Assembly: GCA_022821085.1 (NCBI GenBank)
Contig: JAJEEG010000006.1
Coordinates: 1,881,330 to 1,945,329 of the forward strand
Origin: Candidatus Latescibacterota bacterium
GTDB lineage: Bacteria > JAAXHH01
DNA: 64,000 nucleotides
Direction: 5' to 3'
Below are positions 23,390 to 47,357 of the stretch, one piece after another. The position numbers and the translations under genes were made by a program. The first letter of the stretch is position 1, and every line of letters starts with the position of its first letter. Under the pieces are notes generated by a model. It was not told the origin of the DNA. It was given only the letters and a program-made list of their open reading frames with translations, and searched no databases.

Positions 23390-23986
23390 ATGCGTAGTCT
23401 TCCAAAACTCATCATGGAATACGCCTCTGAAACACCCGAAGGCGCGTTGTTGTGCCCGAACGCCCTGCTTCACCTGGGAACCCGTTCAGCCGTGGACCAG
23501 GCGTTGTCGCGCCTGGCGCGAAACGGCCGCTTGATGCGCATCTGCCAGGGCATATACGCACACCCTGTCGAAACGCGCTTCGGCATTCGTCCGCCAACTA
23601 TCGAAAAGGTGGTCTCGTCCCTATCGGTGCTGACCGGTGAGACGATCGTACCCAGCGGCGGCGCCTCGGCAAACGTCCTGGGACTTACCACTCAGGTACC
23701 CGTACGGACGGTCTACCTGACATCCGGGCCGGACCGGTATCTGAAGCTGGGTGAACTGCGGGTGGAATTGCGCCACGCGCCGAGTTGGCAACTGGTTGCT
23801 CCCCGCCGTAAAGGCGGCGACACTATTCGTGCCCTGGCCTGGCTGGGATCCCGGGAGATCGACGTGCACGTCGGGATGATCAGGCGCAGTCTCACGGACG
23901 ACGAACTCCGGGAACTGGCGGAATTGCGCGCCTCAATGCCGACCTGGATGGCCGAACCCGTAAGTAGGATGATTGCCGATGAATGA
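23390..23986 (+). CDS. abiEi: AbiEi-like antitoxin (DUF6088 family)
   Basis: A 198-residue antitoxin and autorepressor of a type IV AbiE toxin-antitoxin system. The N-terminal winged helix shows the layout typical of the family, S-A-V-D-Q-A-L-S-R-L-A-R-N-G-R-L then ICQGIYAHP. The C-terminal part contains ETIVPSGGASANVLGLTTQVP and YLTSGPDRYLKLG, matching the DUF6088/AbiEi antitoxin domain. It overlaps the toxin gene by 8 bp, the usual coupled arrangement. AbiE systems abort phage infection or stabilise DNA. The gene sits at the left edge of the defence island behind an AT-rich promoter with a palindrome. Confidence 0.88.
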   Translation: MRSLPKLIMEYASETPEGALLCPNALLHLGTRSAVDQALSRLARNGRLMRICQGIYAHPVETRFGIRPPTIEKVVSSLSVLTGETIVPSGGASANVLGLTTQVPVRTVYLTSGPDRYLKLGELRVELRHAPSWQLVAPRRKGGDTIRALAWLGSREIDVHVGMIRRSLTDDELRELAELRASMPTWMAEPVSRMIADE

Positions 23987-25001
23987 CGTGGTCTTTAACG
24001 AGCTTTCGGCCAAAGAGAAACGGGATGCCCTTCGAATTGCCGCGAGTCGCAGTGGACGCCGCGCCCACCTGCTGGAAAAGGACATTTGGGTGGTATGGAC
24101 GTTAAGTGCATTATTCGAAGGCCCTTTTGGCGAGAGCCTGACTTTCAAGGGCGGTACTTCATTGTCCAAAGCATACCGAGCCATCCGCCGCTTCTCCGAA
24201 GATCTCGACATCACCTATGACATACGCCGTATGGCACCAGACCTGGTGGCCGGAAGCGATGATGAAGCCATTCCCGGGAACCGGAGTCAGGAAAACAGCT
24301 GGACCCGGGAAATCAGGAAGCGATTGCCGCTTTGGGTGAAGGATCATGCGATGCCCGTCTTGGAATCAAATCTGGACGAAACTGGGGTTTCGGCGCACAT
24401 CCGGGTAGAAGGAGAAAGCTTATATGTTTCCTATGACCCTTTGTTCGATGAATATGGCTTTGTGAAACCTGAAGTGATGGTGGAATTCGGCGCCCGATCG
24501 ACCGGCGAACCACGAGAAGAACACGTCATCGAATGCGACGCAGCCGACTATCTGACCGAGGTGACGTTTCCTTCGTGCCACACATTCGTTATGCTGGCCG
24601 AACGCACTTTCTGGGAAAAGGCCACTGCCGTACACGTTTTTTGTCGAAGGCAGAGAAGCCGGGGGGAGCGTCTCTCCCGACACTGGTACGACCTCGTTCG
24701 ACTGGACGATGCCGGATTCGCTGAGAAGGCATTGGCAGACCGGGATCTTGCGATAATGGTCGCCCGTCACAAATCGCTATTCTTCCGCGAGAAGGACAAA
24801 ACAGGAAACTGGATCGATTACCATCAGGCGGTCTCGGGACAGTTGCAACTCACGCCTCAGGGTGAAATGTACCAGGTGATAGCCGATGATTACGCCAGCA
24901 TGGCCGACGATGGCATGATTCCGGACGGCGAGGAAGGATTCGACCAACTTATGGAACGGTGCGCCGACATCGCGAACAGGGCTAACAAAACTGAATGCTG
25001 A
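23979..25001 (+). CDS. abiEii: AbiEii/AbiGii-family nucleotidyltransferase toxin
   Basis: A 340-residue toxin with a DNA polymerase beta-like nucleotidyltransferase fold. The signature LTFKGGTSLSKAYRAIRRFS leads directly into the metal-binding S-E-D-L-D-I strand (around residue 68), with a third acidic residue probably supplied by VMVEFGAR. Further on, WEKATAVHVFCRRQ and RHWYDL fit the family C-terminal helices. AbiEii is thought to transfer nucleotides to an RNA target and stop growth. I use ATG 23979 rather than TTG 23973. All key motifs are present, so the toxin looks intact and the pair should be functional. Confidence 0.9.
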   Translation: MNDVVFNELSAKEKRDALRIAASRSGRRAHLLEKDIWVVWTLSALFEGPFGESLTFKGGTSLSKAYRAIRRFSEDLDITYDIRRMAPDLVAGSDDEAIPGNRSQENSWTREIRKRLPLWVKDHAMPVLESNLDETGVSAHIRVEGESLYVSYDPLFDEYGFVKPEVMVEFGARSTGEPREEHVIECDAADYLTEVTFPSCHTFVMLAERTFWEKATAVHVFCRRQRSRGERLSRHWYDLVRLDDAGFAEKALADRDLAIMVARHKSLFFREKDKTGNWIDYHQAVSGQLQLTPQGEMYQVIADDYASMADDGMIPDGEEGFDQLMERCADIANRANKTEC

Positions 25002-25111: not shown

Positions 25112-25140
25112 TTGACACTATAATGAGTTTTGTGTATACT
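25112..25140 (+). promoter_or_regulatory. Sigma-70-like promoter of the type I restriction-modification operon
   Basis: TTGACA (25112-25117), a 17-bp spacer and TATACT (25135-25140) form a near-consensus promoter in the AT-rich gap after abiEii. A second TATAAT lies at 25119-25124. The predicted transcription start (about 25147) is within 2-3 bases of the ATG at 25149, so the first gene would have an almost leaderless message. The motif match is strong; activity is inferred. Confidence 0.65.
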
Positions 25141-25148: not shown

Positions 25149-25787
25149 ATGAAACTGCAATTCTCAAATGTGCGCATCGAAGAAGTCTGCACGATCCAAA
25201 CGGGGTACACGGCCCGTGGCCGCCTCCAGTCCGCAACCCGCGGCGGTCTATTGGCAATTCAGTTGGGTGACTTTCCCCTGGACGGCCATATTGCGCCCGA
25301 TAGATTGACCCGCGTGGACTTCGACGGGAAACCGGAGAAGTTCCTCGTCGGTCCGGGGGACGTTCTGTTCCGCTCCAGGGGCGAGAAGAACATAGCTGTT
25401 GCGCTCGATGACCGTTTCATCGAACGGGCGGTGGCCGTGTTACCAATCTTCATACTGCGCCCACGGACGGACGTCATCCATCCCGAATACCTCGCGTGGG
25501 CCATCAACCAGGCTTCAGCTCAGCGATACTTCGACCGCGTCGCCTTGACCACGACCATCCGCATGGTGCCGCGTTCCAGTCTCGAAACATTGGAAATCCA
25601 GATACCATCGCTGGAATCGCAGTGCATGATTACCGCATTGGACGATCTGGCCGAATGCGAACGCGCATTGACCATCCACGCCGCGGACAGGCGAAGGTAC
25701 CTCTACCGGCTACTTCTCGAAAGTCTTATCAGAGATCAGACAACAAGCGACGAATCGGACGCTTCGGAGGAAAGGAACGCGAAATGA
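25149..25787 (+). CDS. Half-size type I specificity subunit-like protein (single target-recognition domain)
   Basis: A 212-residue HsdS-like protein, about half the length of a normal specificity subunit. It has one target-recognition domain: VRIEEVCTIQTGYTARGRL at the start, FLVGPGDVLFRSRG, then YLAWAINQASAQRYF and the SLETLEIQIPSLESQ segment before a C-terminal helix. Full HsdS has two such domains; half-size forms can dimerise with themselves or a second HsdS. It overlaps hsdM by 4 bp, and a complete hsdS follows hsdM, so two S-like proteins are available to one M subunit. Whether it is a functional half, a modulator or a leftover copy is open. The start abuts the predicted transcription start. 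Confidence 0.75.
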   Translation: MKLQFSNVRIEEVCTIQTGYTARGRLQSATRGGLLAIQLGDFPLDGHIAPDRLTRVDFDGKPEKFLVGPGDVLFRSRGEKNIAVALDDRFIERAVAVLPIFILRPRTDVIHPEYLAWAINQASAQRYFDRVALTTTIRMVPRSSLETLEIQIPSLESQCMITALDDLAECERALTIHAADRRRYLYRLLLESLIRDQTTSDESDASEERNAK

Positions 25788-27301
25788 CCGACCAGACCAC
25801 TCAGCAGCAGGTCAACCAGACCGCATGGGCCGCCTGCGACACCTTCCGGGGTGTCGTGGACGCCGGTCAATACAAGGACTACATCCTCGTGATGTTGTTC
25901 CTCAAGTACATCTCCGATCTCTGGGACGACCACGTGGAGAAGTATCGAGAGCAATATCGTGAAGATGCCGTCCGGATCCGCCGAAGGCTCGAACGCGAGC
26001 GCTTCATTCTGCCCGAAGGGGCGAGTTTCAACGACCTCTACCGTCAACGCAACGAAGCGAACATCGGTGAACTGATCAACCAGGCGCTCGAGCAAATCGA
26101 AGACAGGAACCGCGCGAAGCTCGAAGGGGTGTTCCGCAATATCGACTTCAATTCGGAATCCAACCTGGGGCGGACCAGGGACCGAAACCGTCGGCTGAAG
26201 AACCTGTTGGAGGATTTCGCCGGTCCCGCGCTCGACCTGCGGCCTTCCAGGGTGTCCGAAGACGTCATTGGCGAGTGCTATCTCTATCTGATCTCGCGCT
26301 TTGCGTCGGATGCCGGCAAGAAGGCCGGTGAGTTCTACACCCCCGCGTCGGTATCCCGGCTGCTGGCCGGCTTGGCCGCGCCGAAACCCGGCAATACCAT
26401 CTGCGATCCGGCCTGCGGGTCGGGCTCACTGCTGATACGGGCGGCTAACGAAGTCGGGTCGGACGATTTTGCTCTCTATGGGCAGGAATCTAACGGCGCG
26501 ACCTGGGCCCTGGCCCGGATGAACATGTTCCTGCACGCGAAGGACGCGGCGCGCATCGAATGGTGTGACACCCTCAACAGCCCGGCGCTCGTGGAAGGGG
26601 ATCATTTGATGAAGTTCGACGTGGTGGTCGCGAATCCTCCGTTCTCCCTGGACAAGTGGGGGGCGGAAAACGCGATGAACGATCCGTACGGCCGGTACTG
26701 GCGCGGCGTACCGCCGAAATCGAAGGCCGACTATGGCTTCATCACCCACATGATCGAGATCGCGATCCGCGGCAGCGGACGCGTCGCGGTCATCGTACCG
26801 CACGGCGTGCTCTTCCGGGGCGGCGCCGAAGGCCGGATCAGGAAGGCGCTGATTGAGGAGAACCTGCTAGACGCCGTGGTCGGCCTGCCCGCGAACCTCT
26901 TCACCACGACGGGCATACCCGTGGCCATCCTGGTCTTTGACCGTTCTCGCGAGGAATGTGGAAAGAATGAAGATCGCCGGAACGTACTGTTCATAGATGC
27001 AAGCAAGGAATTCACACCGGGCAAGGCGCAGAACGTCATGGAAACGGGACACATCGACCGGGTCCTGAAGGCGTACAAATTCCGAACCGATATAGACAAG
27101 TACGCCCACGTCGCAGGCCCGGAGGAGATCGCCGAGAACGACTTCAATCTCAACATCCCGCGGTACGTCGACACCTTCGAACCGGAAGAAGAGATCGATG
27201 TTGCGGCCGTTCAGCAGGAAATCGACCAGATTGAGGCCGAACTGGTCGAAGTGCGCAAGAAGATGCGAGGGTACCTAAAGGAGCTTGGCGTAGATGTCTG
27301 A
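25784..27301 (+). CDS. hsdM: Type I restriction-modification DNA methyltransferase subunit M
   Basis: A 505-residue N6-adenine methyltransferase subunit. The N-terminal HsdM_N helical region (ACDTFRGVVDAGQYKDYILVMLFLKYISDLW) is followed by the SAM-binding motif I in CDPACGSGSLLIRAA and the catalytic N-P-P-F motif IV in DVVVANPPFSLDKWG. The C-terminus, with repeated acidic coiled-coil turns after PRYVDTFEPEEEID, contacts HsdS. GGAGGAAAGG lies just before ATG 25784; an open frame reaching 25496 overlaps the previous gene and is not used. HsdM with HsdS methylates the recognition site and with HsdR forms the restriction complex. Confidence 0.96.
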   Translation: MTDQTTQQQVNQTAWAACDTFRGVVDAGQYKDYILVMLFLKYISDLWDDHVEKYREQYREDAVRIRRRLERERFILPEGASFNDLYRQRNEANIGELINQALEQIEDRNRAKLEGVFRNIDFNSESNLGRTRDRNRRLKNLLEDFAGPALDLRPSRVSEDVIGECYLYLISRFASDAGKKAGEFYTPASVSRLLAGLAAPKPGNTICDPACGSGSLLIRAANEVGSDDFALYGQESNGATWALARMNMFLHAKDAARIEWCDTLNSPALVEGDHLMKFDVVVANPPFSLDKWGAENAMNDPYGRYWRGVPPKSKADYGFITHMIEIAIRGSGRVAVIVPHGVLFRGGAEGRIRKALIEENLLDAVVGLPANLFTTTGIPVAILVFDRSREECGKNEDRRNVLFIDASKEFTPGKAQNVMETGHIDRVLKAYKFRTDIDKYAHVAGPEEIAENDFNLNIPRYVDTFEPEEEIDVAAVQQEIDQIEAELVEVRKKMRGYLKELGVDV

Positions 27302-27397
27302 AGGCGAGTCGAGCGAACGGGCAACCTGTAAGCGTTTTTTACGAGTTCGTACTGAGGGCAACCGTCAAGTCGAGAGATATTGGAAGGAACGCGAGCA

Positions 27398-28585
27398 GTG
27401 GACAAAGTAATGATTAAGGGATGGCGAAATACAACAGTCGGCGAACTGGGGCTTGTCATTACTGGAAAGACACCACCAACTTCGACAAATGGATTCTTCG
27501 GAGGTGACATTCCATTCGTTACACCTGGTGATTTAGGAAATTCTGCGGTTGTGTTTGATGCGGAAAGGACTCTGACTCTGGCTGGATTAGAGCAAGCGAA
27601 ACCTATACCTCCGGGTGCAGTTCTCTTCACCTGTATCGGGACCATTGGTAAATCGGCGATTGCAGGGAGGCAACTTGCTACCAATCAACAGATAAACTCC
27701 GTAATCTGCGATCCTGAGAAAGTCGAGAACAAGTTCCTTTACTACCTACTGAAGTTTCATAGCGACAGGATCCAACGTCTTGCCGGTTCTCAAGCGGTCC
27801 CGATTGTCAACAAGTCCACGTTTGAGAATGTAGCCGCTATCATACCTCCGCTTGAAGAGCAAAGAAAGATTGTTGAAGTTCTACGAACTTGGGACGAGGC
27901 TATCGAAGGCGTAGCCAACCTGATCAAATTGCTTAGATCTCGGCGAGAGGCAATGAGATATGTGCTGTTTTCTGAACGTCAATATGCTGTAAAGACAGCT
28001 TCATTCGGTGACTTTCTCAAGGAAAGTCGCCTACTTGGTTCCGAAGGTAAAGTGGGTAGGAAAATCACGGTCAAACTCTATGGAAAAGGAGCTGTGCCGA
28101 AAGTTGAAACACGACCCGGTAGTCCGAGGACACGATACTATCGTCGCACCGCCGGCCAGTTAATCTATAGTAAGCTGGACTTTCTTAATGGAGCGTTTGC
28201 CATTGTACCTGAGTCGCTTAACGAATTCCAATCGAGCTTGGATTTACCAGCTTTTGATATCAGCGAACATGTAAATTCAAAATGGTTGCTCGAATACCTT
28301 ATCCGTCCTTCCTATTACTCGCGCCAACTCCATCTTGCACGTGGCCAGCGCAAGGCACGTCGAATTGCACCAGCGGATTTTCTGACATCACCGATAAAAC
28401 TTCCCGATCGAAGGGTACAAGACCATATCGCCAGTACGTTAGCCTCCACTGACGATGAAATCGCGTCACAATGTAGTTTACTCGAAATGTACAATCGTCA
28501 AAAAAAAGGCTTGATGCAAAAGTTCCTTACCGGAATCTGGCGGGTAGATACTACCGGCCCTCGACTTACCAGACCAAAGGACTAA
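27398..28585 (+). CDS. hsdS: Type I restriction-modification specificity subunit S
   Basis: A 395-residue specificity subunit with two target-recognition domains. The first begins GWRNTTVGELGLVITGKTPPTS and ends in IIPPLEEQRKIVEVLRTWDEAIE, the conserved helix repeat. The second runs to FLTSPIKLPDRRVQDHIASTL and a closing helix, LLEMYNRQKKGLMQKFLTGIWRV, typical of HsdS C-termini. It determines the bipartite DNA site. GTG 27398 is preferred because GGAAGGAAC sits 7 bases before it; ATG 27410 is an alternative. The sequence is clearly more AT-rich than hsdM, as usual for exchangeable specificity genes, and marks the left edge of the foreign cassette. Confidence 0.93.
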   Translation: MDKVMIKGWRNTTVGELGLVITGKTPPTSTNGFFGGDIPFVTPGDLGNSAVVFDAERTLTLAGLEQAKPIPPGAVLFTCIGTIGKSAIAGRQLATNQQINSVICDPEKVENKFLYYLLKFHSDRIQRLAGSQAVPIVNKSTFENVAAIIPPLEEQRKIVEVLRTWDEAIEGVANLIKLLRSRREAMRYVLFSERQYAVKTASFGDFLKESRLLGSEGKVGRKITVKLYGKGAVPKVETRPGSPRTRYYRRTAGQLIYSKLDFLNGAFAIVPESLNEFQSSLDLPAFDISEHVNSKWLLEYLIRPSYYSRQLHLARGQRKARRIAPADFLTSPIKLPDRRVQDHIASTLASTDDEIASQCSLLEMYNRQKKGLMQKFLTGIWRVDTTGPRLTRPKD

Positions 28586-28592: not shown

Positions 28593-31500
28593 ATGCCACT
28601 CCCTGGTGGACCAGCTGGCAAATACGGGCCCCGGTACGAAAAATGGTGGACGGTCTCTCAGCTCATTCGAATCATCGTGGGCCAAGCAGACAGCCTCCGT
28701 ATTGAGGATCCTGACTACCCCAAAGCTGAGTTTGTACTTTCGGCAGGAAACTGTCGTGAGTTTCACCAGACAAAGCGTAGCAATCCAAATGGCAAGTGGA
28801 GTCTGAGCGGACTTCAAGGTGACAATCTGTTGCAAGCGATTTTTGAGTATCTTTCCCACGACCACAACACACAGTTCGTTTTCGTATCTGGTAGCGATGC
28901 ACCGGAATTGAGGGAATTGACGGAAAGAGCAAACCAAGCTGAGTCCTTGGAGGAGTACGAGTCAGATTTTCTAAGTTCTACGACTCACAGACAGAATCTA
29001 TCAAAACTCGAATCACTGTGGGGTAACCCGGACAAATCCCTTGTATACAATGTACTTCAGCGAATCGAAGTCCGTACCATTGATGAAAGAGGGATCGAAG
29101 AGCAAGTACGGCGGTCACTGTCGCTACTTTTCCTCAGTAACCCGAGTGAGGTTTGCGATGCGATACGAGCCTTAGTCGAGGACTCGATTCACATAGTCAT
29201 TGATCACAACTTTCTTGATTCCACCCTCAAAGAAAAAGGATTCATTTCAAGACGCCTTTCTAATCCGAAGAACGCCCCAGTGCTTGCCAACGAGGTTACC
29301 AATAACTATCTGAACGGGATAAGACGTCAGTTGATCAACAAGACACTCATACCGCGGTCCAATTTCCAGAATCTACTTACGGCACTAAAGGAAAACGAGA
29401 CTAGTACAGATTGCATTGTCACCGGAAATGCCGGAGGCGGAAAAACCGCGAGCATACTCGAACTCGTAAACTTACTCCGACAAAACGATGCACCACCTGC
29501 TGTACTTGCCTTTCGTCTGGATGGAATGGAACCTGTCCCATCGACGAAGACATTAGGGGAACGTCTCGGACTGGAAGAGTCGCCCGCGTTAGTCCTGAAA
29601 GCTGCGGCGGAAGTTCAATCCGGCGAAGCGGTGCTCATTATCGATCAACTCGATGCTGTCAGTAAAACCTCCGGACGCAGATCGGATTTCTTTGACGTGA
29701 TTGAAGCTCTTTTGGAGGAGGTGAATGCATGCCGTAACGCCGTCAAGTTCCATATTGTATTGGTCTGCAGAAAGTTCGATTGGGAGAACGACCATCGGTT
29801 TCATCAGTCTCTGGCAAAGGAACCAGTACCCATCTCTGTCTCGGATTTCTCTCAGGAGGAAGTCAGAACCATACTCCTCGACCACGGATTTAATCCCGAC
29901 TCGATCCGAAAACAAAACCTAAAGTTGCTTGGATTACCTCAGAACCTGGCGATGTTCCTCGAAATTAAAAAGGATGCAGGCATACAGTCTACCTTCACTT
30001 CTGCCATAGATCTATATGATGAGTACTGGGATGTCAAAAGACGGTCAGTCAAAAGGCGTGCCGATTCCGGTGATCACTGGATCGATGTAATCCAACAATT
30101 GTGCGATGAGATGTCAGCTTCGCAACAGCTTTCAGTCCCGAAAGAAGTACTTGACCGCTTCCCTGTCGAATACGTCAAGAGCATGACCTCAGAGGGTGTC
30201 CTGTCTTACTATGGAAGGCGTTACAGATTCAGTCACGAGTCTTTTTTCGATTACTGCTTCGCTCGTGACTACTTCCTTAAGAGTATATCTCTGACCGACT
30301 TCCTCAAGGCGTCGGAACAACATTTGTTTCGAAGAGCGCAGGTCCGGCAGATACTCGAGTATCTTCATGATGCAGACTTGGAACGCTACTGTAGCGAACT
30401 GAATGAGTTATTGAGAGATGATAAGATCCGCTATCACCTGAAAGACCTGGCCATCGCGCTGGCTGTCAGGTTTTCCGATCCAAGTGAAAGCGAATGGAAC
30501 GTACTTGATCCTTGGATCAGTTCAGAATTAGAAGCTATCGAATGCGGCCGAAAGAACGAAGAGGACATCGCCTCTACGGTATGGAACTACTTTTTCTATT
30601 CTGAGTCCTGGTTTCCGTTGGCAGACAGAATAGGTTTGATAACGAGTTGGCTCGAATCGGAGAATGATCGTCTTATCGATAAAGGCGTGGAATATGTAGA
30701 ATTCCATCAAAGTCACTCAGGCGACAGGGTGGCAGATCTTTTGGAACCATTCATCGACAAGGGGGATGAGTGGCATAAGCGACTTTATCGTGTAATGCGA
30801 GGGCGCGAACATGGAAACAGCCGGCCGTTCTTCGATCTGTTTCTGAAGTCAATCGACAATGGAGTTTTGGATAGTGCCGGCAACAGGGTTTTGGATTCAA
30901 TGGGATATAGGGCTAGAGAACAATCTTCATGGATTGCTGAAATCGTCGCTCATTGGCTAAACAGACGAATCACTCTAGTAATAGAAACCAGTGATGAATC
31001 GGATTGGCACAACTGGCTTGGTTTAATCGGGTCGGATAGTTCTGGCTCGGATGAGGTTACATCTTCCGCCTCTATTGCTCCCAAAGCATACATACGACAT
31101 GTGCTACCTGTCGTGCTGAAGATCTCCGATGCAGCCGTTCTTAGTCATAAAGTTATACCACCGATCCAGGATGCAGTATGGACAATTTTAACAAATTACG
31201 AGTACTCTCGTCTTGACGAGGCTATTCGGGAAGCTGTTGCTACGGCGGTCGAAAAAGTCACGGAGACCAATTCAAAAGAATTAGACGAAATCCTGAATGC
31301 ACTCAGGAGTCGAGAAACTCTTATAGCGAACCATTTTCTCCTTCGAGCCTACACCGCTGGTGCTGAACATCTTGCGGACGACGCGGTAACCGAGCTATGC
31401 AGGAATCCGTGGCGCTTCGATTGTGAGTATTCTGGTACAAAGTATTGGCTGGCGTATAAGTTGATAGAAGCCACTTCCCCTCATTGTTCAGATAAAAACC

Positions 31501-33140
31501 GAATAAAACTTGAACAGACAATTTTGAACTATGTTCCCGATTATGAACGTAGTCCTGAGGGATGTAATTCTAGGGGATATACTTCTTACTTCCTGCTATC
31601 CGGAATACCCGTGAGAATGCGTAGCGAAGATACGAGGCGGCGTTTCGAAGAGCTTGCAAATGAGTTCGGTCCTTTGACCATCTCCCCGCCAAAGCCGATC
31701 GGAGCTGGCTTCGCGGAGTGCCCAATTGAAGAAGCGGAGATAGAGAAGATGACCGATGAACATTGGCTCAGCGAAATTGGAAAATACGTATCTGAAAATA
31801 CTCCATATGACAACACAAAACCGTTCAGAGGCGGAGCCACACAACTTGCTCAGAGGATGGAAGCGTGTGTCAAAAAAGAACCGGAACGATTCGCGCGTCT
31901 GAGTCTAAGACTTCCTGCCGAAACGAATCCGGTTTATTTGGATCATGTGCTCAGGGGTCTTAAGGAAACAGATGTTTCTGCCGAACTGAAACTGGAAGTT
32001 TGCCGAAAAGCATATAAAGAATCCCGTGATTACTGCGATAGATCTATTGCGGATATACTGGGTTCGCTAGAAGAAAGGCTACCCGATGATGCGGTAAAGA
32101 TGCTCGACTGGCTGGCTACGGAAAGTACTCGGTTTGATGTGGGACTCTGGTTGGGCAGCCCCGATGGAAACGCTGAACAAACGGATCTGCTTACGAAAGG
32201 AGTCAACTCTACCCGAGGACGCTCCGCCATAGTGATAGGTGACCTTATCCGAAGGGACGCCATGTACGTTGAGCGATTTGCATCCACCATCGAGAAACTG
32301 GTCAGAGACGGGTCTTCAGCCGTTCGAGCATGTGCGGCTAGTATACTTGTCGATATATCGTTTCATGATAAGGAATACGCGTTGTGCCTGTTTCAAAAGG
32401 TGGTTGAACCGTGTGATAACGATGTAGACGCCGACAGTTTGCTGGCAACGCGGGACGTAGAGGGGTTTATCAACTACTGTCTGAGAGACGATTTCGAACT
32501 ACTTCGGCCCGTTATCGTTCGGATGCTGGAATCGAGCAAGTCTGATGTAAGACAGGTAGGAGCTCGACTCGCAGGACTGGCTGTTCTCTATCGTCACAAT
32601 GCAGCCGATAGCATAGTTGAAGAAGCACTTCGAGGTGACTCGTTCCAGAGGCTTGGATTGGCGGAGGTGGCCGCCAGGAACATCGGCCACAAAGAATGCA
32701 GGGACTGGTCTGTACGGTATCTGATACGGTTTTTCAATGACACCGCTCAGGAAGTCCGTCGTGAAGCGTCGAGTTGCTTCAGCAGCCTCGAGAATGAACC
32801 ACTGGAACAGTACGAAGACCTGATCAACAGATTCTGCGAAAGCGACGCGTTTGAAGAATCCTCGTGGTACCTGGTCACAGCTGTAGAGAAATCTTCACAT
32901 CGTCTTCCCCGTATGACGTATGTCGTATGTGCAAAGTTACTCGACTTGCCCGACGATGGGGGGCGCGACCGAAGTGTACGTCAATCAACCGATCTCTCCA
33001 CCGTATCAACGTTGATTCTTCGTGTATATCACCAGCATCAACAGGACCAATGGACTGTAAAATGTCTTGATTTGATAGACCTGATGTACCGCAAGAGAAT
33101 CCGTGAAATAAGATGGCACATGAAGGAATTCGAAAGATAA
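28593..33140 (+). CDS. Large STAND/NACHT-type NTPase with predicted N-terminal PD-(D/E)xK-like domain and HEAT-like C-terminus
   Basis: A 1515-residue protein of signal-sensing STAND architecture. Residues 1-110 resemble DUF4297/Cap4-type nuclease folds: YGPRYEKWW, then acidic E38 and E46 and the H-Q-T-K core at 58-61, a layout like E...Q-x-K. The NTPase has Walker A GNAGGGKTA (278-286) and Walker B VLIIDQLDAV with D351, followed by FSHESFFDYCFARDYF, a winged-helix-like STAND feature. From about residue 600 to the end lie long helical repeats, HEAT-like around 1300-1480 (VRACAASILVDISF, VRQVGARLAGLAVLY, VRREASSCFSSLE). By analogy to Avs-type proteins the repeats would sense a phage component and trigger the nuclease. 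Composition is AT-rich. It starts 8 bp after hsdS. Confidence 0.78.
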   Translation: MPLPGGPAGKYGPRYEKWWTVSQLIRIIVGQADSLRIEDPDYPKAEFVLSAGNCREFHQTKRSNPNGKWSLSGLQGDNLLQAIFEYLSHDHNTQFVFVSGSDAPELRELTERANQAESLEEYESDFLSSTTHRQNLSKLESLWGNPDKSLVYNVLQRIEVRTIDERGIEEQVRRSLSLLFLSNPSEVCDAIRALVEDSIHIVIDHNFLDSTLKEKGFISRRLSNPKNAPVLANEVTNNYLNGIRRQLINKTLIPRSNFQNLLTALKENETSTDCIVTGNAGGGKTASILELVNLLRQNDAPPAVLAFRLDGMEPVPSTKTLGERLGLEESPALVLKAAAEVQSGEAVLIIDQLDAVSKTSGRRSDFFDVIEALLEEVNACRNAVKFHIVLVCRKFDWENDHRFHQSLAKEPVPISVSDFSQEEVRTILLDHGFNPDSIRKQNLKLLGLPQNLAMFLEIKKDAGIQSTFTSAIDLYDEYWDVKRRSVKRRADSGDHWIDVIQQLCDEMSASQQLSVPKEVLDRFPVEYVKSMTSEGVLSYYGRRYRFSHESFFDYCFARDYFLKSISLTDFLKASEQHLFRRAQVRQILEYLHDADLERYCSELNELLRDDKIRYHLKDLAIALAVRFSDPSESEWNVLDPWISSELEAIECGRKNEEDIASTVWNYFFYSESWFPLADRIGLITSWLESENDRLIDKGVEYVEFHQSHSGDRVADLLEPFIDKGDEWHKRLYRVMRGREHGNSRPFFDLFLKSIDNGVLDSAGNRVLDSMGYRAREQSSWIAEIVAHWLNRRITLVIETSDESDWHNWLGLIGSDSSGSDEVTSSASIAPKAYIRHVLPVVLKISDAAVLSHKVIPPIQDAVWTILTNYEYSRLDEAIREAVATAVEKVTETNSKELDEILNALRSRETLIANHFLLRAYTAGAEHLADDAVTELCRNPWRFDCEYSGTKYWLAYKLIEATSPHCSDKNRIKLEQTILNYVPDYERSPEGCNSRGYTSYFLLSGIPVRMRSEDTRRRFEELANEFGPLTISPPKPIGAGFAECPIEEAEIEKMTDEHWLSEIGKYVSENTPYDNTKPFRGGATQLAQRMEACVKKEPERFARLSLRLPAETNPVYLDHVLRGLKETDVSAELKLEVCRKAYKESRDYCDRSIADILGSLEERLPDDAVKMLDWLATESTRFDVGLWLGSPDGNAEQTDLLTKGVNSTRGRSAIVIGDLIRRDAMYVERFASTIEKLVRDGSSAVRACAASILVDISFHDKEYALCLFQKVVEPCDNDVDADSLLATRDVEGFINYCLRDDFELLRPVIVRMLESSKSDVRQVGARLAGLAVLYRHNAADSIVEEALRGDSFQRLGLAEVAARNIGHKECRDWSVRYLIRFFNDTAQEVRREASSCFSSLENEPLEQYEDLINRFCESDAFEESSWYLVTAVEKSSHRLPRMTYVVCAKLLDLPDDGGRDRSVRQSTDLSTVSTLILRVYHQHQQDQWTVKCLDLIDLMYRKRIREIRWHMKEFER

Positions 33141-33358: not shown

Positions 33359-33889
33359 ATGCAACAGACTTTAAGACCAACTCTTCAGGACCTCCGCATG
33401 GAATGTGTCCTGATGCAGGCCTGGAAGAAAACATCTTCCTATCTCCGGTCTCATAGCTGGTACGCCGATACCCTTGGGATCGATATGCAATCATTGCGCG
33501 TATCCTCGTTCTTGGGTGAATTACAGGCTCGTTTGCAGAATCCAGACCAATGGGAGCCGCAGCCTTTGAGGTTCGTTCCCGCTCCGAAGAACCAGCGATG
33601 GGAGATCGACGAGAACGGAAGATGGGGACCAGAGAAGCAGAAGAAGAAAAGGTCGAAATCAAAACCTATGAAACATAAGGACCAGAAGAAAAAGGACCGC
33701 ATCCGTCCACTCGCGCACGTTGATCTGGGAGATCAAGTTGTGGCGACTGCGATTTTGCTCTGTCTGGCGGATCGAGTTGAATCCAAGCTTGGCGACCCCC
33801 GTTTGGATGTGAAAAAGGGTAATCAGCGAAAGGAGGTCCTCGCGTACGGCCACAGGCTATTCTGCGATAAAGCCGGGAATCCGGCCTGA
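33359..33889 (+). CDS. N-terminal fragment of an RT-nitrilase protein (frameshifted from the next entry)
   Basis: A 176-residue frame carrying the N-terminal part of a UG/DRT-type reverse transcriptase: AWKKTSSYLRSHSWYADTLG, PLRFVPAPKNQRW, a Lys-rich insert (KKKRSKSKPMKHKDQKKKD), then IRPLAHVDLGDQVVATAILL and VLAYGHRLFCD. It ends at TGA 33887-33889. In the -1 frame translation continues as LRHRWGSSKLYRGYFQDYKK, which joins this part smoothly to the polymerase core in the next entry. The two frames are both open only between 33871 and 33889, so the shift must lie there. No classical X-XXY-YYZ slippery heptamer is seen, so a one-base deletion (true or assembly) is more likely than programmed frameshifting. 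Confidence 0.8.
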   Translation: MQQTLRPTLQDLRMECVLMQAWKKTSSYLRSHSWYADTLGIDMQSLRVSSFLGELQARLQNPDQWEPQPLRFVPAPKNQRWEIDENGRWGPEKQKKKRSKSKPMKHKDQKKKDRIRPLAHVDLGDQVVATAILLCLADRVESKLGDPRLDVKKGNQRKEVLAYGHRLFCDKAGNPA

Positions 33890-33912
33890 GGCATCGCTGG
33901 GGAAGCTCTAAA

Positions 33913-36900
33913 TTGTATCGTGGCTATTTCCAGGACTATAAGAAGTTTCTGAAGCGACCAAGGCGCGTAAAGAATGAATTGATGTCGCTTGAAAAAAAGG
34001 ACTTGGACGTCGCCGTAGTTCAATCCGATTTATCGAAATTCTATGATCGGGTGCGTCCCTCGATGTTGCACGAAAAACTACGGGAGTTCCAGAGATCATC
34101 AGATGAGATACCTTTCTTCGATCTCGCTGAACGTGTTTTGAATTGGCGCTGGCACTTCTCAGATAGAGACAGGGCTCTACGGTATGCCGACGCGAATGAT
34201 ATCGATGATGAATTTAGGGAGGTGGCTCTTCCACAGGGACTTGTGGCCAGTGGATTCTTCGCGAATATCGCACTTGTCGACTTTGATAAGGAACTTAAGA
34301 CAAGAATCGGTAACGAATTTGGGACAGATGAAGTGATTCTTGAAGACATCTGTTACTACGTGGACGATTTTCGTCTGACGTTGAGTTTTTCAAAGGATTT
34401 GTCGATAGATGAGAAGAACATAGAGGAATTTGTAATCAGGACATTAAAAGATCTCCTTTCTTCTTGCGCCCCAGGCCTCGAACTTTCTTGCGAAAAGACC
34501 AATGCCGCGATTGAAACCAGAGATAATCGTTTGCATGTGAAACAGTCGCAAGAAGCTACGCGGATTCAGAAACGGGCTTCCGGTGTATTTGACGCAACCC
34601 TCGGTACCGAATTGATCGGTGCCATAGAAAGCTTCTTCTACAGACAGCGGCACTACGCTACTTCGGAAATAGGGAAATTCGATGAGACTCTGGACGGGGT
34701 TCCCGACATGCCGGATGAAACGGTAGCACGCTTCGCCGCCGGGAGGATGAGACGCACATTTCGTTCCTTGCGGCCGCTTTTGCCTAATGCGGAAATTCCT
34801 GAATCCATGGACGAAGATCAGGATATCACGGAATCAGTTCCAACCTTTGCACTTACGAAATCTCAATTGGATGAAAGGGGGAGAGCTTTTTCATCATTAC
34901 TCATTGGTGAGTGGATCAGGAATCCAGGGCATGTGCGCTTGCTTCGTATTGCTCTTGATTTCTATCCCAGCCACCAGTTCCTGGATAGAGTATTACAATT
35001 GTTACGAAAAAGCTGGGAATCGACAGGGACTCGGGGGTCGAGACGGGAGATCATGCTATACTGCCTTGCGGAACTCTTTCGGGCGGGAGCGACAGAAACG
35101 GGTATGGTGCCCGACATTGAATCGGAATCGTTGCCAAATGGTATATCTGTTGAAAATGAAAAATACCATGACAGCCTCGCTAAGGAGGCCCTGGCAATTG
35201 TCTCCGCTTACATTTCGAAACGCAGATCTGTTGCGCGATTCCCCTGGTATTTAATGCAGCAGGTGTTACTCTACCTCGCCATACGGAATCAGATTCCAGA
35301 GACCGTGCTCACCACGAGTATCCGAAAAGGGGGAGATTTACTGGGCGACTACTGGAGATTTCTCAAGTTCCTTCGAGGTCGCGTTCCCGACGACCTTGAG
35401 AAGCGTTCGATATTCCTGGTAGAGACTATCACAGCATTTGGAATCCCGGAGCCAGGAAAACTTGCCTCTACCAAACGGATTTCTCGTAATTTCCTGTTAA
35501 GAGTGAATTCAATTTCACCCTTAGTCGCGAAGAAGCTTTGGACAACGGCCAGCTATGGATCAGGGAAGGATGTTAAACGACTGGCCATTCGCCTTGGGCT
35601 CGAACCGTCTGGAAACAACGGTCAGTCTATAATACCACTTGATGAGGAATCTTCAAAGAAGCAGACGTTATCCGACCTCACCCCCGATGCTGTAAATCCC
35701 TTTCATGAGGAGGAGAATCTCCTGCTACTGGCGGAATACCTACTCAGTCAAGACTCGACAGTTTTCACTGAGCCAATAGTTCCTGCCGGTATTCGGTTCT
35801 CTCTGAAGCTTCCAAGACCAAAAGGCTTTGAATTCGGTAAGATCGAAGATGATTCGATTGAACATGAGTCGATTGAGGACTATACGACTCCGTTCTTCAA
35901 TTCACCCGATTGGTGTGAAAACACAGAAGATCGCCAACGAATCAATACAGGACTTCTGCTTCGGTACGCTCTCCGAGGTTCGAACGATTTTCTATCCAAT
36001 ATTTCTATAAGTCGCAACAGGAGCTATCCGAGATATACCAAGCCAGTCTCGCACTGGGAACAGCAAAGATATGCCGGCTATCAAGGACGAGATGCGTTTG
36101 GTCCAGATTGGCTGCCAATCTCGCAGTTCACGGAAAATCTACTCTTCGATCTATTGCGCTGGCCAGGGGCGGGGGCGGGACGAGACATCGTCCCGGTCCA
36201 CGATCTACTTAGTACCGTGTCATCCCAACTGGAACACATCAGGAAGAAGAGGGGCCAGTATACATCCACAACATTTCTGGAACAGTCAGCACCATTGCAA
36301 CACCGCTCTCAAGAGGATAGACGCGATCGCGCCCTCCGCATTGGGATAGTTCAATCTGTGGTTCCCAGTTTCGAGCATTACAAAAAGCACCGTAAAGATC
36401 CAAAGCTTTGTAAGGATGAGATAAGGTCCAAATGCCGGGAACATCTGTCCGCGATAATGGCAGGAGTCTTCCAACAGTTACGTGTACGCGAGTCACATAT
36501 GAGCAGCCCTAATGAAAGTGGTATCAACCTTCTTGTATTCCCTGAACTTGCCATTCATCCTCAAGACATAGATACGTATCTACTGCCCTTTGTGCAGCAG
36601 TACCGGTGTATTGTGTTGTTAGGACAAGTTTATCACCCCAGAGACCTTCATCCAGATTCTCCGATAGTAAACAGCGCTCTCTGGATAATTCCTGACAAGA
36701 GTAGTTCAGATGGACTCCAAATCAAGCGAATCGAACAAGGGAAAGCCCATATTGCGGAGACTGAACGTAGCCTTTGCCCCACACCAATAGGATTTCGGCC
36801 TGCGCAATGGCTGATTAACTACCAATGGAGCAAAGACCCTGAGGCAGAGCGCCCACTACGTCTGACAGCCTCAATCTGCTACGACGCAACCGACTTGGCG

Positions 36901-37278
36901 CTTGCCGCGGATCTCAGTACGAGAAGCGATCTCTTTATCATCTGCGCGCTGAACAAGGATGTTGGCACGTTCGACCGAATGGCTGAAGCGATTCATTACC
37001 ATATGTTCCAGGGAGTTATCTTGGTAAACAACGGGCAGTTTGGCGGAAGCAGTTTCTTCATGCCTTTTAAGAAACCCTATGAGCGAGAAGTGTTCCACCT
37101 GCACGGACAACCACAGGCTTCGATAGCATTTGCCGAAATCGATCCCTTAAAACTGATAAAGCGTCCAAGCCAAGAATTTCGCGACAAGCCACCCAAGGGT
37201 AAATGGAAAACACCGCCTGCGGGACTCTATGGTTGCGACCGCCCGGACAGTTCTGCTAACGATCTCTACGAGGGATAG
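33913..37278 (+). CDS. UG/DRT-type reverse transcriptase core fused to C-terminal nitrilase (C-N hydrolase) domain
   Basis: A 1121-residue frame, which with the preceding fragment restores a protein of about 1306 residues. Polymerase motif A is QSDLSKFYDRV (catalytic D39), motif B ALPQGLVASGFFANIAL (105-121), and motif C YVDD (149-152, bases 34357-34368). A long helical middle follows. From about residue 806 a nitrilase domain begins (RIGIVQSVVPS), with the Glu-Lys-Cys triad apparently intact: E878 in LLVFPELAIHP, K944 probable, and C989 in ASICYDATD. An RT joined to a nitrilase is the layout of antiphage DRT type 1 (UG1), or the related UG5 group. The frame is open upstream to 33871; TTG 33913 is only a formal start. 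It lies in the hsdS-hsdR gap and is AT-rich. Confidence 0.85.
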   Translation: MYRGYFQDYKKFLKRPRRVKNELMSLEKKDLDVAVVQSDLSKFYDRVRPSMLHEKLREFQRSSDEIPFFDLAERVLNWRWHFSDRDRALRYADANDIDDEFREVALPQGLVASGFFANIALVDFDKELKTRIGNEFGTDEVILEDICYYVDDFRLTLSFSKDLSIDEKNIEEFVIRTLKDLLSSCAPGLELSCEKTNAAIETRDNRLHVKQSQEATRIQKRASGVFDATLGTELIGAIESFFYRQRHYATSEIGKFDETLDGVPDMPDETVARFAAGRMRRTFRSLRPLLPNAEIPESMDEDQDITESVPTFALTKSQLDERGRAFSSLLIGEWIRNPGHVRLLRIALDFYPSHQFLDRVLQLLRKSWESTGTRGSRREIMLYCLAELFRAGATETGMVPDIESESLPNGISVENEKYHDSLAKEALAIVSAYISKRRSVARFPWYLMQQVLLYLAIRNQIPETVLTTSIRKGGDLLGDYWRFLKFLRGRVPDDLEKRSIFLVETITAFGIPEPGKLASTKRISRNFLLRVNSISPLVAKKLWTTASYGSGKDVKRLAIRLGLEPSGNNGQSIIPLDEESSKKQTLSDLTPDAVNPFHEEENLLLLAEYLLSQDSTVFTEPIVPAGIRFSLKLPRPKGFEFGKIEDDSIEHESIEDYTTPFFNSPDWCENTEDRQRINTGLLLRYALRGSNDFLSNISISRNRSYPRYTKPVSHWEQQRYAGYQGRDAFGPDWLPISQFTENLLFDLLRWPGAGAGRDIVPVHDLLSTVSSQLEHIRKKRGQYTSTTFLEQSAPLQHRSQEDRRDRALRIGIVQSVVPSFEHYKKHRKDPKLCKDEIRSKCREHLSAIMAGVFQQLRVRESHMSSPNESGINLLVFPELAIHPQDIDTYLLPFVQQYRCIVLLGQVYHPRDLHPDSPIVNSALWIIPDKSSSDGLQIKRIEQGKAHIAETERSLCPTPIGFRPAQWLINYQWSKDPEAERPLRLTASICYDATDLALAADLSTRSDLFIICALNKDVGTFDRMAEAIHYHMFQGVILVNNGQFGGSSFFMPFKKPYEREVFHLHGQPQASIAFAEIDPLKLIKRPSQEFRDKPPKGKWKTPPAGLYGCDRPDSSANDLYEG

Positions 37279-37282
37279 TGGA

Positions 37283-37483
37283 ATGGTGGTATATCTGCCA
37301 GTAGACCCCGAGCTACTCGAACAGGCGCAACGTGTCGGAGGCGAGAAGACGAAGCAGGCCACGGTCGAAAGGGCCTTGCGGGAATTCATCGCACGGCGAG
37401 AGCAGAAACGGATTCTCGATCTGTTCGGCACACTCGAATGGGACGAGGGATACGACTACAAACGTGGTCGTGAACGCCGGTGA
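37283..37483 (+). CDS. VapB-type antitoxin, orphan
   Basis: A 66-residue protein of the VapB ribbon-helix-helix antitoxin group. The first strand is VVYLPVDPELLEQAQRVGG, followed by EKTKQATVERALREFIARREQKR, the standard helix with E-R-A-L-R-E-F, and an L-F-G-T-L-E-W-D-E-G-Y-D-Y tail that normally wraps the toxin. ATG 37283 comes 2 bp after the RT stop. No PIN-domain VapC toxin follows; the next 274 bp hold no gene. GC content is back to the host level, so it may belong to the original type I locus and mark the right edge of the cassette. It could act on a VapC elsewhere. Confidence 0.75.
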   Translation: MVVYLPVDPELLEQAQRVGGEKTKQATVERALREFIARREQKRILDLFGTLEWDEGYDYKRGRERR

Positions 37484-41232: not shown

Positions 41233-42000
41233 ATGACGCCCGAATGCCACAGGATTCAATGCGGCGAACACCGGATTGAATTCACCGTCGTGCGCCGCGA
41301 CCGGAAGACGCTGGAGATCGGTGTCGAACCGGATACGTCCGTCGTCGTCGCCGCTCCACGCGACGCGTCATTACAGGACATATTCAATAGAGTCCGAAAG
41401 CGGGCTTCGTGGATACGCCGTCAACAGCGTTTCTTCTCCCAGTTCCTGCCCAGAATCCCCGAACGTCAATTCATCGCCGGAGAAACCCACCACTATCTGG
41501 GAAGGCAGTACCGGCTCAAGGTGACGACTGTCGACCGGCCGAGGGCTGCTGCCGACCGATCGAGGACGGCCGACGACCAGCCGAGCGTCAAGATGATACG
41601 GGGTTTCATCGTGGTCCGCAGTCGGGATCCCGGGAGGAGCGATCTGACTCGCAGTCTCGTCGAAAGCTGGTACCGTGTGCGTGCTCGCACCAAACTAACG
41701 GAACGGCTCGAAGCGAACTTGGTCAGGTTCCCGGACCCGAATTCATACCGGCCGCGTGGATTGATCGTCCGGAAGATGCGCAGGCGATGGGGATCCCTTT
41801 CGGCGTCTTCGCGGCTCGTGCTCAATCGCCGGTTGATCGAAGCGCCGGTCGACGGCATTGACTACGTAATCACGCATGAACTCTGTCACTTGACTGAACC
41901 CCACCATGGCAGGGACTTCTACGAACTGCTGACTACTGCTATGCCGGATTGGGAGAAGCGTAAAGAGCGATTAGAGCGAAGTGTTGGTGGGCGGATATGA
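41233..42000 (+). CDS. YgjP-like metallopeptidase domain protein (M48/DUF45)
   Basis: A 255-residue zinc-peptidase-like protein. The C-terminal half has the full active site VITHELCHLTEPHHGRDFYELL (HExxH with the downstream His), preceded by RRRWGSLSASSRLVLNRRLI, the family's W-G-S-C/L signature. The N-terminal half is the usual DUF45 beta region. Such genes are frequent directly downstream of hsdR, as here (76 bp), and are commonly treated as part of the type I locus, though their role in it is not established. No signal peptide. Confidence 0.9.
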   Translation: MTPECHRIQCGEHRIEFTVVRRDRKTLEIGVEPDTSVVVAAPRDASLQDIFNRVRKRASWIRRQQRFFSQFLPRIPERQFIAGETHHYLGRQYRLKVTTVDRPRAAADRSRTADDQPSVKMIRGFIVVRSRDPGRSDLTRSLVESWYRVRARTKLTERLEANLVRFPDPNSYRPRGLIVRKMRRRWGSLSASSRLVLNRRLIEAPVDGIDYVITHELCHLTEPHHGRDFYELLTTAMPDWEKRKERLERSVGGRI

Positions 42001-42997: not shown

Positions 42998-45900
42998 CTA
43001 GCCATTATCGATAGCACGCAAGATATCATCGGCAACTTCATTCACCTCAGCCGTTGCACGTACGTCCAACCCTGTTCGTTTTTGCAGTGCTACTACGAGA
43101 GGGCTAAGAACCTCAGCCTTCCTATCGTCGCTTAACAGGATATCAAGGACATCACTCTCTGAAGCTCCTGTCGTGATAATGAAAACTACACTCCCGATCA
43201 TCTCCTGCAAAATAGCTTGGTCATCAAGATCGGCGGAAGCATACACGGAACGGAACAAATCCATAGCGGCGGTGTGGTCCTTCTGAATCAGTAAAACCCT
43301 AATCCTGATCCAATGCAGTTGGCGTCTTGTATCGTTGGCCTGTTCTGCTTCTAAATTACCCACCATTTCTTGAATCGTATCGCAAGTTCGCTGTGCTTCT
43401 GACAGCCGACCGATTTTAATCTGGTTGTCGGCTTTGCTGACCCATGCGCCGGCGACCGCTCCTTGGAACCATGGGTTATTGCTTGCACTTGCACGGTCAA
43501 TTAATTCGTCATAAGTCGCTATACTTTCCTCGTATTTTCCTAGTTGACTTTGGACAAGAGCTTTGTTGTCCATCGCCATCACCACGACCTGCTGCAACCC
43601 TTCTGAATTGCTGTCAACGAAACATTCTACAACCAGATCATAAGTTTCGATGGACCCTTCATTGTCACCGAGGTTTCCCAGCGCGACACCTTTATTGATC
43701 AAAGTCCTGGCAATCCATAACTGAACCATGGAATCGGTACTATCTCCAAAGCGGTCAATCACTTCATCGTACGTTGCGATCTCTGCTTCGGAACGCCCAA
43801 GTTGCCCTTGCATCATTCCCTTGTTTAGAAACGACTTTGCGACAATTGCTTGGATTTCGGTCGATTCACTGGTTCCAAATCGCTCTATTACCTGATCGTA
43901 ACTCGAGATAGCCTCCGATAGGTTACCGAGATTCCATTGAGCAACTCCCCGATTTATCATCGCCGTGGCGACTAGAATGTGACGGTTCAATCTGTGGTCA
44001 TCGTCGACCCAGGCAATTAACTCATCGTAGGATTTAACCGAGGACTCAACATCGCCTAGTTCGAACTGCGTCTCTGCTTTGTTAAATAACGCCTCGGCTA
44101 CTAATCCCTTTAATGGCAATTCTTCAAAAGCACCGAAGCGTTTTAAGATCTCATCGTAGGCCCCGATAGCTGCCAATGAATTACCTAGCTCAACTTGTAC
44201 AGTCGCTTTAAGCATTAGCGCGTCAGCGACTTTTTTCTGAATCTGAGGCTTGTCAGAGTCTGCAAACCGTTCACTAATAGACTCTAAGGTAGCATTCGCG
44301 TCGCTGAGTTGGCCAAGTTCTTTCTGTACAAAACCTTTATTTACCATTGACTCGGCCAGTAACGACTCGAACTGAGGTATTCTGCTTGCATGAAATCGCT
44401 CTTCGACCGATGTGAAATCCTTATACGCCTCAGATAGCCTACCCATCCCGCAAAGAACCATACCCTTAAGAAGCTGAGCTTTAGCAACCATAAACTGGAT
44501 TCTCGGTGACTCTTGATCTGAAAACCGTTCAACGACCGAATCGAAGATCTCGATGGCCGCTTCAGGTTCTCTGCTTTGGACTTTTTCATCTGCTTTACTA
44601 ATCAAGTCTTCGGCGACCTTCACTACTTGACTAAGTTCAGCTTCTTTCTGGTCAGAACATATAAACTCGCGGTTGACTGTTACCGGTTCCAAACCTGAAT
44701 CAGAAATCTGACTGAACAACTGTTCAATCTGTGGTACATCCGCCCTCGCTCGCTTGAACCCTTCACGAATCGATTGGAACCGCGTCGCCTCCGCTCTGAA
44801 CATTTCCGACATCGCAGTCAGTTCGTCCTTACTGTAGAACACCGCCATAAACCGGATTAAATTGTGCACGACTGCCGCCTCATCCCGTTCACGTCTCATT
44901 TTATAGTAGATGCTGTACAGCCGTTCCGCCGCGGCATACTCCCGTTTCCTTGGACTTCCGTCGTAGGTAACGGCTCCACGATCAACTAATCTGCCAAGAA
45001 GGCTGGACACGCTTCGGACATCCATTCGCGCCCTTGCGGCGATCTCGCCGGTGGTCGAAGGTTGCCAGAGGTCGATTACCGCGAGATAGACACGACGCTC
45101 CGTTGGTGCCAAGGCCTCCAAATGGCCGCGGAAATACTCGGTATGGTCGTCTACGAGCGTCACCAGTTCTTCTATCAACTGGCGTAACGACCGGTGCTGC
45201 GCGAATTCCGCGACGATAACCAGTAGGCGGGGACTGCCGCCAGTGAGTATCTGCAGTGGTCTTATGCGGCGATCAGTAACTTCATCGCCGCTGACCACCT
45301 GCCACAACCGCCCGCATGCCTCGGTGTCCAATGGTTCGAGATTGATGGTTCGGAACAATTCGAAGAAGGGTTCTTGTGCTTCGTCCAGACCTTTGAAACG
45401 GCTTGTAGCGGTACCGATCAGTATGACCTGGGGCTCGGTCTGCAACGTCCTCCGCAACTGCCATCCGAAATCGTCATCCACGTCGGCGCACAGCGTCTGC
45501 AGGTTTTCGACCATGAGCACGAGCTTCCGGCCCAACCGATCGGAAGCGTCCAAGACCACAGCCCTGGCCCGCTCCGCCAGAGAATCCCCCCGCCATCGGG
45601 TTGTCAGATCGGTATGGGTATCCTGAAGTTCCCGTCCGAAATCCGGATCGGAACCCGCGACCTCCTTCGACAGATAGAAGAGCGTCTCAAGCCAGAAGTC
45701 GGCGATATCGAGTATCTCGTGGCTTTCTTCCATGAATCGCACAGGCACCAGACACCGAGAAAGTTTATGATCAGTGCGCAGCTCCGACGCTACGCGGGCC
45801 AGCAGCATTGTCTTCCCCATACCCCTTCGCGCGACCAGCAGGATGTGTTGGCACGAAGGAGTTTCAACGTTGTCCCGCAGCACGTTCAGTACGATTTCCA

Positions 45901-46006
45901 GTTCGTGTTCCCGTACCACGAATTGCCGGATCACTTCTTCATTAGACTGGAACGTGCCAGGATTGAACTTACGGATCGTGGAGGTCTTGGCTCTGGGCGA
46001 ATCCAT
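42998..46006 (-). CDS. AAA/STAND-like ATPase with winged helix and long TPR-like repeat region
   Basis: A 1002-residue protein. Residues 25-330 form an Orc/STAND-like ATPase: Walker A LLVARRGMGKT (56-66), a Walker B-position strand LVLMVENLQTL in which the acidic pair is V-E-N (166-168), and sensor-like ILIGTATSR. A winged-helix segment follows (TTGEIAARARMDVRSVSSLLGRL, about 345-370). From residue 470 to 930 run repeated 40-residue helical units of the type A-x-Y-D-E-(L/I)-I-x-R-F, TPR-like, about ten copies. Such repeats bind protein partners. It follows the smaller ATPase by 10 bp with GAGGAGACACCC before the ATG, so they are one operon. Its place in the defence island suggests immunity, but no described system is matched with certainty. 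Confidence 0.75.
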   Translation of the reverse strand: MDSPRAKTSTIRKFNPGTFQSNEEVIRQFVVREHELEIVLNVLRDNVETPSCQHILLVARRGMGKTMLLARVASELRTDHKLSRCLVPVRFMEESHEILDIADFWLETLFYLSKEVAGSDPDFGRELQDTHTDLTTRWRGDSLAERARAVVLDASDRLGRKLVLMVENLQTLCADVDDDFGWQLRRTLQTEPQVILIGTATSRFKGLDEAQEPFFELFRTINLEPLDTEACGRLWQVVSGDEVTDRRIRPLQILTGGSPRLLVIVAEFAQHRSLRQLIEELVTLVDDHTEYFRGHLEALAPTERRVYLAVIDLWQPSTTGEIAARARMDVRSVSSLLGRLVDRGAVTYDGSPRKREYAAAERLYSIYYKMRRERDEAAVVHNLIRFMAVFYSKDELTAMSEMFRAEATRFQSIREGFKRARADVPQIEQLFSQISDSGLEPVTVNREFICSDQKEAELSQVVKVAEDLISKADEKVQSREPEAAIEIFDSVVERFSDQESPRIQFMVAKAQLLKGMVLCGMGRLSEAYKDFTSVEERFHASRIPQFESLLAESMVNKGFVQKELGQLSDANATLESISERFADSDKPQIQKKVADALMLKATVQVELGNSLAAIGAYDEILKRFGAFEELPLKGLVAEALFNKAETQFELGDVESSVKSYDELIAWVDDDHRLNRHILVATAMINRGVAQWNLGNLSEAISSYDQVIERFGTSESTEIQAIVAKSFLNKGMMQGQLGRSEAEIATYDEVIDRFGDSTDSMVQLWIARTLINKGVALGNLGDNEGSIETYDLVVECFVDSNSEGLQQVVVMAMDNKALVQSQLGKYEESIATYDELIDRASASNNPWFQGAVAGAWVSKADNQIKIGRLSEAQRTCDTIQEMVGNLEAEQANDTRRQLHWIRIRVLLIQKDHTAAMDLFRSVYASADLDDQAILQEMIGSVVFIITTGASESDVLDILLSDDRKAEVLSPLVVALQKRTGLDVRATAEVNEVADDILRAIDNG

Positions 46007-46016
46007 GGGTGTCTCC

Positions 46017-47288: not shown

Positions 47289-47357
47289 TTGAATATCCTT
47301 CTTGGAAACAGGTCTAAAATGACATTGAGACTGATTGCTTACGCTACCATGATAATA

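Follow-up and report, generated by a model that had tools for sequence, protein, structure and literature searches.

Can a bacterial NLR-like sensor serve as a backup for a restriction enzyme, or as a guard over one? The question is raised by a locus of a Candidatus Latescibacterota bacterium (assembly GCA_022821085.1), where the gene for a STAND NTPase lies within a type I restriction-modification (RM) operon. We analyzed a stretch of 64,000 nucleotides of contig JAJEEG010000006.1, called here the window, to which all coordinates refer unless another locus is named. The gene product (P0001; hereafter the STAND protein) is very probably a bacterial relative of the human NLR immune sensors, equipped with a DNA-cutting domain and a long arm of HEAT repeats. 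With a probability of roughly 0.7, we read it as an intracellular NACHT/STAND phage sensor-effector, autoinhibited at rest, that forms a ligand-triggered oligomer and cleaves double-stranded DNA, leading to abortive infection. What is unusual about the gene is its location within the RM operon, a setting overlooked by an earlier note on this DNA whose interpretation is otherwise supported in part.

The gene and its family

28593..33140, plus strand: STAND (NACHT-type) nuclease protein, 1515 aa (P0001); open frame, homologs, alignment

The open reading frame (ORF) starts with ATG and stays open for 1515 codons, and the opposite strand holds many stops in register. It is a real gene, because full-length homologs span identities from 58% in a sister species through 52% in Candidatus Binatia down to ~21%. 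Apart from the sister-species copy, which is itself full length, scanning a single genome for each species recovered 45 further loci of the family (52% to about 21% identity); the homologs number about 50 in all. They are distributed over many phyla, including Omnitrophota, Thermodesulfobacteriota, Pseudomonadota, Chlorobiota, Nitrospinota, Cyanobacteriota, Planctomycetota, Acidobacteriota, Bdellovibrionota, Spirochaetota, and others; the order-level and phylum-level searches covered the same 16 genomes, the host phylum being sparsely sampled. Since phyla are mixed on the tree, the sequences point to a large family spread horizontally across phyla. Viral contigs and phage records contained no relatives, so these collections give no hint that phages carry the gene. 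The motif conservation figures given below come from an alignment of 42 near-full-length members, 39 of which cover the nuclease motif positions.

Domain architecture

28593..29252, plus strand: PD-(D/E)xK nuclease domain, Cap4/HamA/DUF4297-like, residues ~1-220; AlphaFold2 model, structure matches, conservation
29253..30512, plus strand: NACHT NTPase with HD and winged-helix domain (WHD), residues ~221-640; NLRP3 NACHT match, invariant columns
30513..33137, plus strand: HEAT-like alpha-solenoid sensor, residues ~641-1515; AlphaFold2 model, PP2A-A/importin matches

The AlphaFold2 model of residues 1-650 (34 sequences, pLDDT 88.9) contains a PD-(D/E)xK core of alpha-beta-beta-beta-alpha-beta topology in residues 14-99 (helix 14-28, strands 34-37, 47-51, and 54-61, helix 79-89, strand 93-99), with E16 in helix one and the QxK motif in strand three. 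Among the members covering these sites, E38 and K61 are conserved in 39 of 39 and E16 and Q59 in 38 of 39, and an acidic residue (E or D) occupies position 46, so that model and alignment together supply both the core and the catalytic E, D/E, and QxK residues of Cap4/DUF4297 nucleases. Residues ~7-220 superimpose in VIA-align on HamA of Hachiman (Z 14.8, 189 aligned, 3.3 A), Cap4 of CBASS (Z 14.4, 205 aligned, 3.5 A), and DUF4297 of HerA-DUF4297 (Z 14.2, 175 aligned, 3.3 A), and the helical elements past the core to ~220 likewise align to Cap4 and HamA. The nuclease fold is thus common to all of them, but Cap4, HamA, and DUF4297 are driven by a SAVED domain, a helicase, or a HerA partner, whereas the STAND protein has a fused NACHT domain. 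The Pfam model Cap4_nuclease (PF14130) had no match in the genome, and control genomes likewise gave none; nor does it figure among the other Pfam matches.

The NTPase carries Walker A (G278-xxGxGK284-T), Walker B (D351-Q-x-D354), and C392-R-x-F-D396 motifs, with H548 inside the motif F-x-H-E-S-F-F-D-Y; G281, G283, K284, D351, D354, and H548 are invariant in the family alignment. Its best fold matches are NLRP3, NLRP9, NLRC4, and NOD2, and residues 226-646 align to NLRP3 NACHT with Z 22.3 (378 aligned, 4.1 A, VIA-align). Fold, Walker A, D-x-x-D Walker B, and WHD histidine together place the domain in the NACHT clade. The Pfam NACHT model (PF05729) reaches 16.8 bits, below its gathering score of 26.7, although fold and motifs fit, because the sequence model is too distant. 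By analogy with known NLRs, we infer that H548 is the NACHT winged-helix histidine, the customary ADP contact in NLRs.

The remainder of the protein is modeled from residue 560 to 1515 (36 sequences, pLDDT 88.6) as helices only, an alpha-solenoid with HEAT-like helical pairs. Its matches in Foldseek and VIA-align are HEAT/ARM solenoids (CAND1, karyopherins, PP2A-A), with PP2A-A/importin aligning to residues ~1040-1515 at Z about 17.5 (402-419 aligned, 4.9-5.3 A). Since this Z is only slightly over the chance level for helical repeats, we claim a HEAT-like solenoid and not kinship to any of these proteins. Pfam HEAT scores 22.3 bits on the sensor, just short of its cut-off of 23.5, and a Cnd1 match is also weak. 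The least conserved stretch of the protein falls here, in residues 641-900 (14% in distant members vs 31% for the NTPase).

The cue for such an arm might not be a phage protein at all but, for instance, DNA ends, RNA, or host stress, which would make the STAND protein a DNA-damage or plasmid sensor. HEAT/ARM solenoids bind varied ligands and HEAT arrays can take nucleic acid, and HamA, among the closest nuclease folds, belongs to a system that senses damaged DNA (PMC12278908). However, Hachiman senses through a helicase that is absent from the STAND protein, and the layout is that of the protein-sensing Avs proteins; we regard such a cue as quite improbable.

Much of what the earlier note had read from the letters is borne out by these models. 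The E...E...H-Q-T-K spacing is real, the STAND P-loop domain can be specified as NACHT-type, and the choice of a HEAT-like rather than a TPR sensor agrees with the all-helix model and the fold matches, the Pfam signal being weak. The proposed short Cap4/DUF4297-like N-terminus is right in fold and wrong in length, the domain comprising ~220 residues, not 110.

Relation to known systems

The STAND protein has the effector, STAND NTPase, and repeat-sensor layout of Avs proteins, and the top four Foldseek matches of its N-terminal model are Avs3 with terminase and Avs4 with portal. Avs1-4 cleave phage and host DNA upon binding terminase, portal, or Ksap1 (PMC12931631). Like the STAND protein, Avs3 and Avs4 combine an N-terminal nuclease, a STAND NTPase, and a long C-terminal repeat sensor. 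They differ from it in that there is no family-level sequence match, and their sensors are described as TPR-like whereas that of the STAND protein is HEAT-like by fold. None of the models for Avs1-Avs5 passed at its curated cut-off: the sole Avs match in NCBIfam is Avs4, which scores 11.6 bits where the cut-off is 1500, and the PADLOC Avs4 model reaches 16 bits, confined to residues 234-632. The STAND protein is not classed as an Avs and, by analogy, would work like one.

A relative with a solved structure is found in the Protein Data Bank. The family profile retrieves entry 9n00 (1523 aa; also 9n01 and 9yix) with E 1.8e-75; the match falls into two collinear segments, one covering nuclease and NTPase (profile 12-649) and one the C-terminus (997-1509), with the QxK motif kept and nearly equal length overall. 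It is a distant relative by the tree, where it sits on a very long branch, and it differs from the STAND protein in its Walker B region (DSLD vs DQLD). The three entries are labeled just 'AAA family ATPase', and a literature search on 9N00/9N01 found no paper giving a biological name, ligand, or partners. Among the Foldseek matches listed, 9n00 does not appear, perhaps because it postdates that library; the likeness that makes it a structurally solved relative is one of sequence profile. The best PADLOC match of the STAND protein is the candidate PDC-M54A (2e-18), which matches six of the six family members scanned and shares mainly the NTPase (150-561); the literature search turned up no definition or function of PDC-M54.

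The Avs-like layout and the lack of a match to any described Avs subtype, both asserted in the earlier note, hold at family cut-offs. Neither of the two findings that it had named as fatal to its proposal turned up: residues 14-99 do form a PD-(D/E)xK core, and the protein could not be placed clearly in any known Avs clade. Its suggestion of something new in its own right gives way before a large cross-phylum family with a solved relative and a PADLOC candidate. The STAND protein is a further member of a known nuclease-NACHT-HEAT type, not an orphan, and a clear case of such a defense protein outside Avs1-5.

A proposed model for activation

By analogy with Avs3/Avs4 and NLRs, we infer autoinhibition, oligomerization, DNA cleavage, and cell death, and we propose the following sequence of events:

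(i) In the resting state, the HEAT solenoid and the winged-helix domain with H548 would keep the NACHT domain closed.

(ii) Binding of a phage product by the HEAT arm would permit nucleotide exchange at the NTPase, followed by oligomerization.

(iii) The oligomer would bring the N-terminal Cap4-like PD-(D/E)xK domains together to cut double-stranded DNA, probably that of both phage and host, resulting in abortive infection.

(iv) Within its type I RM operon, the gene is probably co-transcribed and translationally coupled to hsdS, so that the STAND protein may form a second layer behind restriction.

The STAND protein diverges between the two species faster than every compared neighbor but hsdS, and its least conserved stretch lies in the sensor, as expected from a phage-facing protein. 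Several points weigh against the sensor-effector reading. The fast divergence could instead reflect relaxed constraint; the NLR fold matches show common architecture, not function; and two neighbors in the operon look broken or partial, a frameshifted reverse transcriptase and a half HsdS, so that parts of the locus may be decaying. Taken to its end, the last point would make the STAND protein decaying defense cargo, no longer functional in this genome. Its own frame is intact over all 1515 codons, however, every motif residue is kept, and the sister-species copy is intact, and we consider such a loss of function highly improbable.

The restriction-modification operon

25112..25140, plus strand: sigma-70-like site TTGACA-17-TATACT upstream of the operon; solely an 11/12 match to the consensus
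25149..25787, plus strand: half-length HsdS-like protein, 212 aa; Pfam Methylase_S weak
25784..27301, plus strand: hsdM, type I methyltransferase, 505 aa; Pfam N6_Mtase 2e-98, 86% identical in sister genome
27380..28585, plus strand: hsdS, specificity subunit; Pfam Methylase_S 6e-28
33359..33889, plus strand: Drt1a (UG1) reverse transcriptase, N-terminal part to the frameshift; PADLOC Drt1a 3e-58, profile 5-155
33913..37278, plus strand: Drt1a reverse transcriptase-nitrilase, the rest in another frame; PADLOC Drt1a 1e-253, profile 167-1176
37229..37483, plus strand: small VapB-like protein, name from sequence, start probably near 37283; 68% identical over 66 aa in sister genome
37722..41156, plus strand: hsdR, type I restriction subunit; Pfam SWI2_SNF2, HSDR_N
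41233..42000, plus strand: YgjP-like metallopeptidase, final gene of the block; Pfam YgjP-like 1e-49, 76% in sister genome

The STAND gene thus stands between hsdS, whose stop lies 7 bp before its ATG, and the Drt1a gene, and its surroundings are of defense type (type I RM, Drt1a, and AbiE). The half-length HsdS-like gene is additional to the full hsdS, overlaps the start of hsdM by 4 bp, and is 61% identical in the sister genome. Promoter and terminator counts are no higher than in shuffles, which makes the 11/12 site weak evidence. The Drt1a gene (33359-37278) bears one frameshift between about 33866 and 33893, for which decay, assembly error, and a programmed shift are all possible.

The sister genome carries the matching operon at the equivalent chromosomal site, with its STAND gene 10 bp past hsdS, a VapB-like gene directly 3' of the STAND gene, and no Drt1a reverse transcriptase; the domains, the invariant catalytic and nucleotide-binding residues, and this arrangement in two species are direct observations. 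In neither genome does the VapB-like gene, located between the cargo and hsdR, have an obvious toxin partner. Identity between the species is 88-91% for flanking housekeeping genes, 86% for hsdM, 71-77% for hsdR, 58% for the STAND protein, and 30% for hsdS (27380-28585 vs L008 8998-10230). As hsdS is only 30% identical while hsdM is 86%, the DNA specificity has been replaced. The sister-genome hsdR (L009 3244-6590) is split into two overlapping frames of 845 and 309 aa; judging from the sequence, restriction may have been lost there with hsdM and the STAND gene intact, or the split may be an assembly error.

Linkage to type I restriction across the family

A gene so tightly coupled to hsdS in both species could encode a protein that stands guard over the type I restriction enzyme, resting on or monitoring HsdMS/HsdR and triggered once a phage anti-restriction protein puts that complex out of action. 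PrrC, an anticodon (tRNA) nuclease, offers a parallel: like the STAND gene, it is an extra effector gene within a type I RM operon (EcoprrI), and it becomes active once the RM complex has been disabled by such an anti-restriction protein. It differs in being a tRNA nuclease from another family, and a guard role for the STAND protein would be by analogy.

The wider family speaks on both sides. An independent member in Spirochaetia lies directly after hsdS with zero gap (L032), another in a proteobacterial genome follows hsdM by 17 bp (L028), and linkage to type I RM has at least three separate origins on the tree, a raw count that includes whatever the background of defense islands contributes. 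Most of the ~45 other loci, however, lack an hsdM gene within 10 kb, and so does the nearest relative from another genus (L010, 52%); therefore, the RM enzyme cannot serve as a general ligand across the family. RM-linked members cluster no more than with shuffled labels, and hsdS itself differs strongly between the two species. Linkage to hsdMSR is recurrent but confined to a minority, and we consider it unlikely that the STAND protein is such a guard. For the RM-linked members taken separately, the guard idea has its appeal, yet it is likewise unlikely that the HEAT arm became a guard of the type I complex more than once, with anti-restriction proteins triggering a genome-degrading NLR. If true, the guard reading would mean one immune system guarding another. 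Several times over, and independently, nuclease-NACHT-HEAT proteins have become part of type I restriction operons.

We looked for a conserved partner gene beside the homologs and found none; the neighbors vary, and by their sequences the surroundings are of varied, defense type. Examples are a DUF4062/RecG-C/HTH protein (L012 7977-9578), a TIR protein (L023 2255-3130), and a multiubiquitin/ThiF (ubiquitin-like) set (L004 6857-8878).

Other genes near the operon

Downstream of the operon, at 42998-47564, lie two minus-strand genes whose products look by eye like P-loop ATPases, with TPR-like repeats in one of them; the ORF list of the sister genome shows nothing equivalent between YgjP and the next gene that both genomes share. 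Upstream, at 23390-25001, an AbiEi/DUF6088 gene is followed by AbiEii. In the sister genome (L008 3935-5924), AbiEi is 81% identical and is followed by an unrelated ORF, HipA-like by eye, and the AbiE toxin slot appears to have been exchanged between the two genomes.

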